From positions 310,001 through 374,000 of the forward strand of contig NZ_JAKWJP010000002.1 of the NCBI RefSeq assembly GCF_022761035.1: a DNA stretch of 64,000 nucleotides. The letters are read 5' to 3'. This document shows, piece after piece, positions 46,657-50,621 of the stretch (positions within the stretch are counted from its first letter, which is position 1; every line of letters begins with the position of its first letter). The notes below the pieces were generated by a model. It was not told the DNA's origin. It did no database searches and saw nothing but the letters and a program-made list of their open reading frames with translations. Position numbers and translations under genes: made by a program. The stretch comes from Microbacterium sp. SS28 (GTDB taxonomy: Bacteria > Actinomycetota > Actinomycetes > Actinomycetales > Microbacteriaceae).

Positions 46657-46824
46657 CCAGCGTATCCGCGGCATCCGACGCTGTGCCGCACAGACACCCG
46701 CGTCTCGAACACGCGTACGCGCTCAGCGAAATGTCATGCATTGGGGGCATTCTCGAAACAAGCGCGTGGTTGTATGTCATGACCAAGCGAAGCAGCACGA
46801 GTGACGATCCGAGGAGGCACCGAG

Positions 46825-47049
46825 ATGAACACGCTTTCGACCCCGACCCAGCCCGCCGCCGTCCTTGAGCACCGCCTGACCGCTGCGGACCGCTGTGACT
46901 CCTGCGGAGCCCAGGCCTACATCGCCGCCGAGGTGAACGGCAGCGAACTGCTGTTCTGCGCCCACCACGGCCGCAAGTACGAAGAGAAGCTCCGCTCGAT
47001 CGCCACGTCGTGGCATGACGAGACGGCACGGCTGAGCGAGTCCGTCTGA
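46825..47049 (+). CDS. DUF7455 zinc-binding small protein
   Basis: A 74-residue protein with a good GAGGAGG site before ATG 46825. The core LTAADRCDSCGAQAYIAAEV, then ELLFCAHHGRKYEEKL, is typical of the small actinobacterial DUF7455 family, with Cys/Cys and Cys/His-His likely holding zinc. It is usually found near sigA and parE. Function unknown. It converges with alr at a 10-bp gap. Confidence 0.85.
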   Translation: MNTLSTPTQPAAVLEHRLTAADRCDSCGAQAYIAAEVNGSELLFCAHHGRKYEEKLRSIATSWHDETARLSESV

Positions 47050-47059
47050 GCAAGTCCGC

Positions 47060-48085
47060 CTAGCGGACCACGCGCGCGACGGTCGGTGCGATCCGCACGG
47101 CGATCTCCTCGCCGATCGTGCCGACCGTCTCGGCCGCATCCGTCGCGCTGAACGGCGCTCCCGCGCCCAGCATCCGCACCTCGTCGCCGATCGCGGCGCC
47201 AGGCCAGGCGTCCAGATCGCTCTCCTCGAGCCGGATCGCGCGGACGAGCGAAGCTCCTGCCGATGTCCCCGCCTCCAGGTGCCCGGCGAGCGAGGAGGGA
47301 AGTCCGTCGAGGCTTCCCGTGCCGACAGTCACGGTGTCGGTCGAGACGCGCACGACCCGGGTCACCAGGGCCGAGATCGGATGGATGCCGAGCTCCGACT
47401 CCCCCGGACCGCCCGCGGGACGGATGCCGTACGCGAACGCCCCGATCCGCACGAGGTCGTAGCGGAACTCATCCCGTGCGAAGCCTGCGGCGGAGGCCGC
47501 GAGGTGGCGCAGGCGGGGACGCAGGCCCGCCGCGCGCGCCTGGTCCCACGCCGTCTCGAAGACGGCGCGGGCCGCGTCATCCTCCTCGTGGGAGGCCTCC
47601 GCGATGTGACTCCACACGCCCACGACCTCGATCCGGCCCGCGCGCTCGAGCTCGGCGGCGCGTGCGACGACCACGGGCCATTCCTCCGGCCGCACGCCGT
47701 TGCGATGCAGTCCTGTGTCGATCTTGAGGTGCACGCGCGCGACTCCGTCGACGGCGGCGAGGTCCTCGAGGAGCACGGCGTCGCCGACGCCGACGTCGAG
47801 ATCGGCGTCGACCGCCTCCTGCGCTTCGGCGGCGGAGGCGACGATCCAGACGAACACGCGCGGCGCGACGCCGAGGCGGGTCCTGACGGCGCTTCCCGTC
47901 CGCACATCGAACGCGCCGAACCACCGGACGCCCTCGGCCCAGGCGCGCTGGACGATCGTGCCGAGGCCGTGCCCATAGGCGTCGTCCTTGACGACGAGCA
48001 TGTGCTCGGCGGGGGCGACGGCGCGGCGCACTGCGCGCAGATTCTCGGCGAACGCGTCGAGGTCGACGCGGAGCTCGGCTGTCAT
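47060..48085 (-). CDS. Alanine racemase homologue, PLP-barrel half (lacks C-terminal catalytic Tyr)
   Basis: A 341-residue fold-III PLP protein. The barrel is intact: Lys33 in VVKDDAYGHG, KIDTGLHRNG, VWSHIAEA, LRHLAASAAGF and VRIGAFAYGI. In alanine racemase a Tyr from the partner subunit (IGYADG motif) and a Met (GRVxMD motif) complete the active site. Here the last ~110 residues have neither; instead there is VGTGSLDGLPSSLAG and a Leu/Ala-rich beta domain. The start overlaps the stop of the short racemase-like gene (ATGA), which has precisely the missing parts. I infer a heterodimeric racemase, or an enzyme with another substrate. Confidence 0.8.
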   Translation of the reverse strand: MTAELRVDLDAFAENLRAVRRAVAPAEHMLVVKDDAYGHGLGTIVQRAWAEGVRWFGAFDVRTGSAVRTRLGVAPRVFVWIVASAAEAQEAVDADLDVGVGDAVLLEDLAAVDGVARVHLKIDTGLHRNGVRPEEWPVVVARAAELERAGRIEVVGVWSHIAEASHEEDDAARAVFETAWDQARAAGLRPRLRHLAASAAGFARDEFRYDLVRIGAFAYGIRPAGGPGESELGIHPISALVTRVVRVSTDTVTVGTGSLDGLPSSLAGHLEAGTSAGASLVRAIRLEESDLDAWPGAAIGDEVRMLGAGAPFSATDAAETVGTIGEEIAVRIAPTVARVVR

Positions 48086-48798
48086 TCGACGTCCTCCCGC
48101 TGCGCGCGCAGCCCGACGGCCGTCACGAGCTCGGCCGCCGACAGCCCCGTACAGGCGACCCAGTCCGCCAGGCGCGGATCATCCGGGCCGTCGCCGAAGA
48201 ACACGACCTCGTCGCCACGCGAGACATCCGCATCTCCGATGTCGACGACGCACACGTCCATCGCCACGCGGCCGACGACGGGATGCCGCGCCGCCCCGAT
48301 GCGCACCGCAACGCGATCGCCGAGCGACCGGACGATGCCCTGCGCGTACCCGCCCGACACGAGCGCGACGCGCGTATCGACGGGCGCGCGGTGCGTGAAG
48401 CCGTACGAGACTCCCTCTCCCGCCCGCAGGCGCTTGACGACGAGCACGGAGCCGGAGAGCCGCATGGCCCCGATGCCGTCGGATCCCGGGAGCCCGTAAA
48501 CCTCGTCGGGATCGAGTGACGCCTCGCCCGCGCCGCGCACAGCCGCGCCGGGCAGCTCCGCCTCGAGCGCCTCCCGGTCGGCCTCGTCGACGACGAACGC
48601 GTCCACGCCTGCCGCCAGAAGCGTGCGCGAGACGCCGCGCGCACCGTGCCCCCACGCGTCGTGGCGGAGGTCCGCGACGGCGAACTCCCCGTCCGAGCGC
48701 AGAAGGAGAGCTTCGACGTTCGCACGCAGCGCACGGTGGTCGATGCGGGCTACGGGAGCGCTGCGCCGGAGCACCGTCATCCGATCGCCCGAAGTCAC
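48082..48798 (-). CDS. Alanine racemase homologue, C-terminal half (lacks PLP Lys)
   Basis: A 238-residue protein; full alanine racemases are ~370. The N-terminal part is a shortened barrel in which the PLP segment reads VADLRHDAWGHG, with Arg45 where Lys is expected. About 150 residues of barrel are missing. The C-terminal domain is complete: AGEGVSYGFTHRAPVDTR, then SGGYAQG with the catalytic Tyr (Y151), then VVGRVAMD with Met180. It is the upstream partner of the Lys-bearing gene (4-nt overlap). Alone it cannot bind PLP as a racemase does. It may pair with the other protein in trans. Confidence 0.78.
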   Translation of the reverse strand: MTSGDRMTVLRRSAPVARIDHRALRANVEALLLRSDGEFAVADLRHDAWGHGARGVSRTLLAAGVDAFVVDEADREALEAELPGAAVRGAGEASLDPDEVYGLPGSDGIGAMRLSGSVLVVKRLRAGEGVSYGFTHRAPVDTRVALVSGGYAQGIVRSLGDRVAVRIGAARHPVVGRVAMDVCVVDIGDADVSRGDEVVFFGDGPDDPRLADWVACTGLSAAELVTAVGLRAQREDVE

Positions 48799-48844: not shown

Positions 48845-49867
48845 ATGCCTCGGAAGGGCCTCGGCCTTGCGCCCCGCCTTCGCTATCTCGCCGGACGCGC
48901 CCGTCGCATCGATGTCGGCTCCGTCGTCGTGCGCGCCAAGGAGGCGTCCCACCAGCACGACAAATGGACGCCGGCGATCGTGGTGGACATGCTGTGGCAG
49001 GCGGGATTCCGCAACGTCGGCTTCCAGGACTACATCGACTACGACTTCGCGATCCTGAACGCCGCCGAGCGCGCGACGTACATGACGCATCCCGTGTCGA
49101 ACCAGCTCTCGCAGAAGTACGACCACCCCGACTTCCGCGGGCTCTTCCAGGACAAGATCGAATTCGACCGCGTCTTCAGCGAGCACCTGCACCGCGAGTG
49201 GATGGTCGTCGAGGCGGGCAACGCCGACGCCGTGCGGGACTTCGCACAGCGCCTCGGCACGATCGTCACGAAGGAGCCCGTGGGACAGGCCGGAACCGGC
49301 GTGCACCGCTACCACGCGGCCGAGATCGAGGATTGGGATGCCTTCCACGAGGGGCTGCTCGCGCGCGGCGAGCTGCTCATCGAAGAGGTGATCGCGCAGC
49401 ACGCCGACCTCGCGGCCGTGTGCCCCGGGACGGTCAACACGACGCGCGTGACGGCCTTCTTCGACGGCGAGAAGACGCACATCCTCGCGATCGCCCAGAA
49501 GTTCGGCCGCGGCGCCGTGAGCGACCAGATGACCTACGGCGGCTTCTACACGATGCTCGACGACGAGGGCCGCTCACGCGGCAAGGGCTACGACTCGCAC
49601 GAGAACATCCACGAGTACCACCCCGAGTCGGGCGTGAAGATCGCCGACTTCCGGCTGCCGCTGATGGACGAGGTCGTCGCGTTCGTCGACCGTGTCGCGC
49701 GCGTCGTGCCCCAGGTGCAGTACGTCGGCTGGGACATCGTCGTGACGCCGACGGGCCCTGTCCTCGTCGAGGGCAACTGGGCAGCCGGCGTCTACGAGAA
49801 CAAGCCGAGCGCCACCGGCATCCGGACCGGCCACAAGCCCCGCTACCAGGCCGCCATCGGGTTCTGA
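48845..49867 (+). CDS. ATP-grasp enzyme (sugar-transfer-associated type)
   Basis: A 340-residue ATP-grasp protein. Seen: IVTKEPVGQAGTGVHRY (the ATP-binding strand and Gly-rich loop), LLIEEVIAQHADL, NTTRVTAFFDGEKTHIL, and YVGWDIVVTPTGPVLVEGNW with the metal-binding E/N at the end. It resembles the ATPgrasp_ST group. Such enzymes join an acid to an amine or sugar. ATG 48845 is preceded by GGAGCCCGC. It diverges from the racemase pair, so a D-alanine or peptide substrate is tempting but unproved. Confidence 0.75.
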   Translation: MPRKGLGLAPRLRYLAGRARRIDVGSVVVRAKEASHQHDKWTPAIVVDMLWQAGFRNVGFQDYIDYDFAILNAAERATYMTHPVSNQLSQKYDHPDFRGLFQDKIEFDRVFSEHLHREWMVVEAGNADAVRDFAQRLGTIVTKEPVGQAGTGVHRYHAAEIEDWDAFHEGLLARGELLIEEVIAQHADLAAVCPGTVNTTRVTAFFDGEKTHILAIAQKFGRGAVSDQMTYGGFYTMLDDEGRSRGKGYDSHENIHEYHPESGVKIADFRLPLMDEVVAFVDRVARVVPQVQYVGWDIVVTPTGPVLVEGNWAAGVYENKPSATGIRTGHKPRYQAAIGF

Positions 49868-49922: not shown

Positions 49923-50621
49923 TCAGGAGGCGCGGACGACGCCGAGCGGCGTCGACTGGTGCCCCTGGCCGAGCGGGTTGTCGCGCAGGATCGCCACGAG
50001 TCGCTTCTCGGCGTCCTTCGAGAGGGTCGAGCCCAGGATGTTCCCGCCGATGTCGTTGATGTCGACGACGGCCACCTCGGGGACTCCGCCCAGGAGCCCC
50101 TTGAGCCGCTGCGCGACCTCGCGCGGACGGTCGGGTCCGAGCACGACGGCCTTGTTGTACGGCGGGATCGTGCCGCTCGTGGGACCGTCGATCGCACGCG
50201 CCTTGTCGCCCGCGATGCGGTAGAAGTCACCACGGCGCCCGAACAGCTTCGTGACGGCCGAGACGGACGCCGCGAAGAGGATGCGGATCGTGCCGCACTC
50301 GCGCAGCGCCATCTCCATCGTCTCCGGCATGCCGAGGCCGATGCCGTACGGCGTCTTGACGACGTACTTCGAGAGGAAGAACGCGAGACGGCGCGGCTTG
50401 ATCGAGTCGATCGGGAACGATCGGCCCTGTGTGATCGCGACGATCTTCTCGGTCACGAACAGCGTGTCGCCCGGCTTGACGACATCCGTCGCGTACTCCT
50501 TGATGAAGGCGTCGAGGTCGTCACCGGGCATGACGACGCGCGTCTTGATCGGAATGCGGGCGTAGCTCGCTCCCTCGAGGTCGACGGTCAGCGCCTTGCC
50601 GGCGTTGGCCTCACCCGTCAT
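49923..50621 (-). CDS. CofE-like F420-0:gamma-glutamyl ligase family protein
   Basis: A 232-residue protein of the CofE domain family. True CofE adds L-glutamate to coenzyme F420-0 with GTP. Seen: [57 protein letters not shown] and [16 protein letters not shown]. Whether this protein works on F420 is uncertain; related copies occur in species without F420. ATG 50621 overlaps the sigma-factor stop by 4 nt, so it follows sigA in one operon. Confidence 0.72.

Follow-up and report, generated by a model that had tools for sequence, protein, structure and literature searches.

The window, a stretch of 64,000 nucleotides of Microbacterium sp. SS28, carries on its reverse strand two overlapping genes, upstream U and downstream D, whose products are both related to alanine racemase (Alr):

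48082..48798, reverse strand: U, a degenerate Alr paralogue of 238 amino acids (profile search and predicted fold)
47060..48085, reverse strand: D, an Alr paralogue of 341 amino acids with a complete PLP barrel (profile search and predicted fold)
48082..48085, reverse strand: ATGA overlap of the U stop codon with the D start codon (sequence)

The coordinates, the strand, the two reading frames and the 4-nt overlap were as given in an earlier note on this DNA. U contains a complete C-terminal domain (PF00842, 107.1 bits) and a remnant of the first barrel strands, which matched positions 1-60 of the 220 of PF01168 with 19.6 bits, below the cut-off of 24.1. D contains the full barrel (PF01168, 169.1 bits, profile positions 1-220) and a C-terminal domain that lacks the tyrosine loop and scored 22.1 bits with PF00842, under the cut-off of 25. 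Neither protein reached the curated Alr threshold of TIGR00492 (168 bits, compared with 124.1 for D and 106.1 for U). Single-chain AF2 models were obtained with an alignment comprising 40 full-length Alr-type proteins as input (pLDDT 95.0 and pTM 0.90 for D; pLDDT 91.4 and pTM 0.87 for U). Both predicted models have the Alr fold and match S. coelicolor Alr entries of the PDB, such as 5fag for D (Z 42.6, rmsd 1.6, 341 aligned) and 5fac for U (Z 24.3, rmsd 1.8, 229 aligned).

The active site of alanine racemase combines the lysine of one chain with the tyrosine of the other, these being Lys38 and Tyr270' in the S. lavendulae enzyme according to a portion of PMC3485190. The codons for the corresponding residues of U and D, and for other positions discussed below, were located by alignment:

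48664..48666, reverse strand: Arg45 of U, at the PLP lysine position of active Alr
48403..48405, reverse strand: Tyr132 of U, in the motif GVSYG, equivalent to the catalytic Tyr265'
48259..48261, reverse strand: Met180 of U, equivalent to Met312'
47987..47989, reverse strand: Lys33 of D, the PLP lysine
47108..47110, reverse strand: Glu326 of D, at the position of the specificity gate Tyr354

In the alignment, Tyr270' of S. lavendulae falls in the GVSYG motif, so the catalytic tyrosine of U is Tyr132. The earlier note had assigned this role to Tyr151, which lies in the motif GGYAQG and is instead the equivalent of the entryway or gate residue Tyr284'; U keeps both tyrosines, and Arg157 as well. 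The remainder of its description of U held, namely an arginine (Arg45) in place of the lysine, the retention of Met180 and the loss of most of the barrel. It had also described D as keeping the PLP barrel and Lys33 without the catalytic tyrosine and methionine, and on this profile search and alignment agree: the segment that bears the tyrosine is absent and the methionine is substituted, and the same-chain cofactor residues are present (Lys33, Tyr37, Lys121, Arg128, His160, Ser198 and Arg213). An Alr barrel with a PLP lysine (Ala_racemase_N) is thus found in D (Lys33) but not in U (Arg45). Tyrosine and methionine do not lie on the lysine's own polypeptide as in Alr, the lysine being in D and the other two in U.

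This division of residues was tabulated for 74 of the 77 U-D pairs extracted from Microbacteriaceae; a pair at a contig end (G112) and the alr-locus pairs of G140 (parse error) and G278 (outside the counts) were left out. The table was set against 42 full-length controls, which are not a free sample, as they consist of the window genome's alr and 41 loci, out of 80 named ones, selected by a filter for the PLP motif and MDQF. All 74 D proteins have K39, Y43, K129, R136, H166, S204, R219 and G221. At K39, lysine was found in none of the 74 U proteins (58 Arg, 6 Ala, 5 Asp, 2 Glu, 1 Thr, 1 Ser and one gap), and their other same-chain residues were retained in none (H166, S204), one (R136), two (R219), 31 (G221) or 37 (Y43) of the 74. 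The catalytic Y265' is present in 74/74 U and 0/74 D proteins, M312' in all 74 U, and R290' in all 74 U and 2 D. Y284' was found in 70 U and 12 D, R309' in 71 U, and D313' in 68 U and 38 D. For the two catalytic bases the split between the chains is therefore absolute, and at the minor positions it is less strict. Since the division of lysine and tyrosine is identical in all the aligned pairs, it is more than chance, and the conservation in Microbacteriaceae that the earlier note had proposed to check was indeed found.

We considered the possibility that U and D form a non-catalytic PLP-binding complex serving, for example, cofactor homeostasis, as PLP-barrel proteins of such a kind exist (YggS type). 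This function would need neither conserved catalytic bases in separate chains nor Arg136 and Met312', and we regard it as highly improbable.

The tabulated pairs span 21 genus codes, with 36 pairs from Microbacterium (3 of which possibly repeat other genomes in the set). Seven further loci, consistent by eye, bring the total to 27 of 85 genus codes; the pair is complete in G001, G015, G030 and G067, D is truncated by the contig end in G012 and G038, and the genes are fused in G234. In a scan of 49 genomes, no full-length U match lay outside Microbacteriaceae. As read from the listed matches, the best one was of the U type in 48 of the 59 sampled Microbacterium genomes; ten others, at least 99% complete, have no U and have alr, and one poor genome is without any match. 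The 4-nt overlap is exact in 66 of the 77 extracted pairs. Among Microbacterium pairs, dN/dS ranged from 0.05 to 0.12 for U (11 of 18 comparisons computed) and from 0.04 to 0.09 for D (3 of 20 computed), these values being limited to pairs of at least 68% identity, with dS near saturation. The recurring overlap and the low dN/dS where computable indicate that the U-D pair is maintained.

These data are difficult to reconcile with a degraded duplicate, consisting of pseudogenes or of one gene split by a frameshift or an assembly error, as could be suspected from the canonical residues missing from both proteins and from their scores below the TIGR00492 cut-off. The layout is the same in all extracted pairs, dN/dS is about 0.04-0.12 where computable, and both reading frames match the C-terminal domain (D weakly), so that no frameshift would merge them into a single Alr. 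We attach virtually no probability to this explanation: recurrence in 77 pairs and low dN/dS rule out a frameshift or pseudogene, and recurrence excludes the sequencing error that the earlier note had named as a possible cause of the split.

We propose that U and D are very probably the two halves of an obligate heterodimer that has one active site of the alanine racemase type. D would provide the PLP barrel with its lysine and the cofactor residues of the same chain, and U would provide the part of the second subunit, i.e. the catalytic tyrosine, the substrate-binding methionine, and the entryway tyrosine and arginine. Of the two sites that the ancestral homodimer had, one would have been given up in both chains, together with most of the barrel of U. 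The gene overlap would couple the synthesis of the two proteins and could plausibly lead to equal amounts of them. One active site per obligate heterodimer, as put forward in the earlier note, finds strong support from comparison: the residues are divided between the chains, the overlap recurs, dN/dS is low where computable, natural fusions exist, and in some genomes a split or fused version is the only enzyme of the alanine racemase type that was found. Gene order and the predicted single-chain folds were likewise observed; dimerisation, one site per dimer, activity and substrate are what we infer from comparison and prediction.

Fusions occur in both orders. In G234, the order is U-D, in a single reading frame with a linker. 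Fusions with the order D-U, 601-665 amino acids long, are found in five genomes of genus g21 (G020, G100, G255, G293 and G211) and in one of g74 (G136); G161 was not parsed as a fusion. In these six, the PLP lysine is present only in the first half, and the tyrosine and the methionine only in the second (motifs, by eye). The fusion is also the sole strong Ala_racemase_N match of each of the six genomes, with barrel scores of 169.7 to 195.7 bits in five and 126.2 bits in G211, the next best match being at most 69.8 bits. Two full-length U proteins (344 amino acids in G126 and 343 in G268), with an aspartate at the lysine position, resemble intermediates as judged from their sequences.

The fusions bear on the possibility that D is active alone, another residue or water taking the place of the tyrosine, and that U is a regulator or a chaperone. 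D has the full barrel and the cofactor site, its monomer fold is predicted with confidence, and it might dimerise by itself and act slowly. Yet the tyrosine and methionine of the six D-U fusions are confined to the U half, and U keeps Tyr, Met and Arg290' without exception among the tabulated pairs, which would be unexpected for a mere regulator. We therefore consider activity of D alone very unlikely.

Some genomes appear to depend on split or fused versions. In genus g78, each of the five genomes gave two strong barrel matches (174 to 208 bits), a third never exceeding 67, and no intact alr was found in them. At the sigA locus, G140 and G278 carry a pair in the order U-D; at their alr locus the pair has the order D-U, and the gene that follows it resembles tsaE (by eye). 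The remaining three genomes have a U match beside an alr-type barrel. The 0.93-Mb genome G015, one contig of 927,303 bp, has as its sole barrel match the D protein of its U-D pair, which adjoins gatD- and murT-like genes and has an acidic gate, with Asn replacing Tyr43 in D. As a split or fused version is the sole Alr-type enzyme found in some genomes, we argue that a site made of one lysine half and one tyrosine half would be sufficient for a living cell, other routes to D-alanine being possible.

As to the substrate of the putative heterodimer, Tyr354 restricts the pocket of alanine racemase to alanine (portions of PMC3485190, PMC3245724 and PMC4517790). D has Glu326 in place of this tyrosine, and the position is acidic in 74/74 D proteins (51 Glu, 23 Asp), compared with 35 Tyr, 6 His and 1 Glu in the 42 motif-filtered controls. 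Lysine-preferring racemases have Thr or Ala there (part of PMC3485190), and charged residues at 354 reduced the racemisation of L-Ala by another enzyme (part of PMC4517790). The latter effect fits with another substrate for the pair, and equally with low activity. Glu or Asp at 354 would pair well with a basic side chain.

The pair adjoins parE, and its neighbours in the window are the following:

46801-47049: small DUF7455 gene (PF24254), between parE and the pair
48845..49867, forward strand: ATP-grasp protein (PF14397), divergent neighbour, candidate bridge ligase
49923..50621, reverse strand: F420-0:gamma-glutamyl ligase-like protein (PF01996), neighbour

The ATP-grasp gene also adjoins U in L086, L092 and L066. 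In many other genera, murT-gatD occupies the interval where the window has the F420-ligase-like gene; in the window, this gene and the ATP-grasp gene take their place. Of 19 sigA-locus stretches compared, 14 contain a MurT-like gene according to Pfam, in most cases accompanied by a GatD-like one. The F420-ligase-like gene stands in the place of murT-gatD in L066, L081 and L283 as well, and in at least one Microbacterium genome (L013, G106) murT- and gatD-like genes are still beside the pair. MurT/GatD amidate the D-Glu of lipid II, and type B walls are linked via this D-Glu, often with a D-diamino acid. The pair is thus co-located with genes of the stem peptide or of the putative bridge. Together, the acidic gate and the locus suggest a substrate other than alanine.

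Four genomes (G329, G316, G334 and G313) gave no U or D match at E 1e-5 within the locus and keep the rest of it, i.e. parC, parE, DUF7455, ATP-grasp, F420-ligase-like and sigA. The DUF7455 gene is accordingly also seen in four genomes without the pair. The best full-length match to the ATP-grasp protein of the window had 70-82% identity in 8 of 10 pair-bearing genomes, none being found in the other 2; in ten pair-less genomes, two were at 70% and eight at 52-57% or 38-41%. Some pair-less Microbacterium, e.g. L274 (G313), have two tandem ATP-grasp genes with 38-41% identity.

Microbacterium walls contain D-Orn, L-Lys or Dab, depending on the species (part of PMC10757982). U is present in M. 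oxydans, which belongs to the D-Orn clade (G337, same contig, contains the pair). G562 (strain Yaish 1), with an alr that shares 96% identity with the one of M. arborescens (L-Lys), is without U, as are G557, G548 and G403 of the M. arborescens clade; U was present in 5 of the 12 genomes compared. This apparent correlation with the wall type comprises one D-Orn genome and one near-L-Lys genome, too few for statistics, and it would be contradicted if one of G557, G548 and G403 were M. radiodurans (reported to have D-Orn), which could be the case. A search of the open-access literature on genes of the type B bridge, which included parts of PMC6113628 and PMC10978784, was without result.

The genome of the window contains a complete alr with a product of 374 amino acids, followed by a gene that resembles tsaE (by eye), and thus has a racemase besides the pair. 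The role of cell-wall alanine racemase, which the earlier note had suggested for the pair if no other alr existed, was consequently abandoned as regards a sole enzyme of this genome. The same heterodimer could still be a second alanine racemase, making D-Ala and no D-diamino acid. It has the fold and the catalytic residues of an alanine racemase, and the pair of G015 is the only Alr-type protein found there; having only a pair with an acidic gate, G015 may also need to make D-Ala with it, unless D-Ala is otherwise supplied. Moreover, split versions that keep Tyr354 are the only Alr-type enzymes of g78 besides the sigA-locus pair, and fusions that keep it are the only strong matches in the five g21 genomes and G136. 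Against this reading stand the full alr of the window genome, the ten complete Microbacterium genomes that do without U and have alr, and the gate, which is Glu or Asp in every tabulated D and remains Tyr in the alr-locus D proteins (G140, G278) and the six fusions. Taken together, the data lead us to favour somewhat a racemase converting an L-diamino acid (Orn, Lys or Dab) into the D-diamino acid of the type B peptidoglycan bridge, a second alanine racemase appearing rather unlikely. As a whole, the explanation by a one-site U-D heterodimer, most likely acting on a diamino acid, is in our opinion a probable one.

Alanine racemase is a textbook homodimer and an antibiotic target. The homodimeric enzyme (TIGR00492; PDB 5fac, 1vfh, 1xfc) shares with U-D the fold, the PLP lysine, the catalytic Tyr and Met, and the origin of Lys and Tyr from different chains, whereas U-D consists of two unlike chains, each missing a half-site, with one site expected and the barrel of U mostly gone. 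In trypanosomes, AdoMetDC requires its inactive paralogue, the prozyme, as an activator; there a dead partner activates, whereas U and D would each give one catalytic base. The lysine racemase Lyr and the broad-specificity racemase Bar also have the Alr fold with Tyr354 replaced and accept basic amino acids; unlike U-D, with its two chains and its Glu or Asp, they are homodimers with Thr or Ala at 354 (all from a portion of PMC3485190). PddB, a racemase of Dab, is likewise an actinobacterial diamino-acid racemase, but PLP-independent and weakly DapF-like (part of PMC8225329). We found no description of a heterodimeric or split alanine racemase in the open-access literature, subscription papers being mostly outside the search. 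A widespread two-chain version with one site would be a natural test of why alanine racemase needs two chains. It would also show clearly how duplicated genes can undergo complementary losses, with intermediate-like forms surviving, and would offer a candidate for the racemase behind the D-diamino acid of type B peptidoglycan, which has long served as a taxonomic character.

The nearest full-length relative of D is Alr2 of other Microbacteriaceae (e.g. L098 and L204, Curtobacterium pusillum), which has an acidic residue at 354 and shares a clade with D. Unlike D, Alr2 combines Lys, Tyr and Met in one complete chain, and its gene lies in tandem with alr. Eleven such proteins with Glu or Asp at 354 were identified, all in loci of Microbacteriaceae, and Alr2 is in tandem with alr at all seven loci where both were seen (L098, L099, L100, L102, L103, L104 and L204). 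Thirty-one D and the 11 Alr2 proteins form one clade separate from alr (support 100/99). In a barrel-only tree, D proteins stand beside two different Alr2 groups, and a single D clade was rejected (AU p 3.2e-5), the tested grouping having been prompted by an earlier tree and not named beforehand. The tree of the U C-terminal domain, based on few columns, groups the 31 sigA-locus U proteins (88/88). A single simple history of the split was set aside on account of this disagreement, which implies either at least two splits or at least two restorations. In both trees, the alr-locus D of g78 groups with normal Alr; as it also keeps Tyr354, it has a separate origin. We tentatively suggest, with slightly less than even confidence, that Microbacteriaceae repeatedly turned homodimeric Alr into a two-part enzyme with one site: Alr2 at the sigA locus would have given a D-Orn, D-Lys or D-Dab racemase for the type B2 bridge, and separately alr, which is split in g78 and forms a one-chain pseudo-dimer by fusion in g21, would be the main and presumably essential alanine racemase there. 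L101 (G246) and L108 (G033) contain a further, third type of full-length Alr, in which the catalytic tyrosine lies in GVGY and the gate residue is His.
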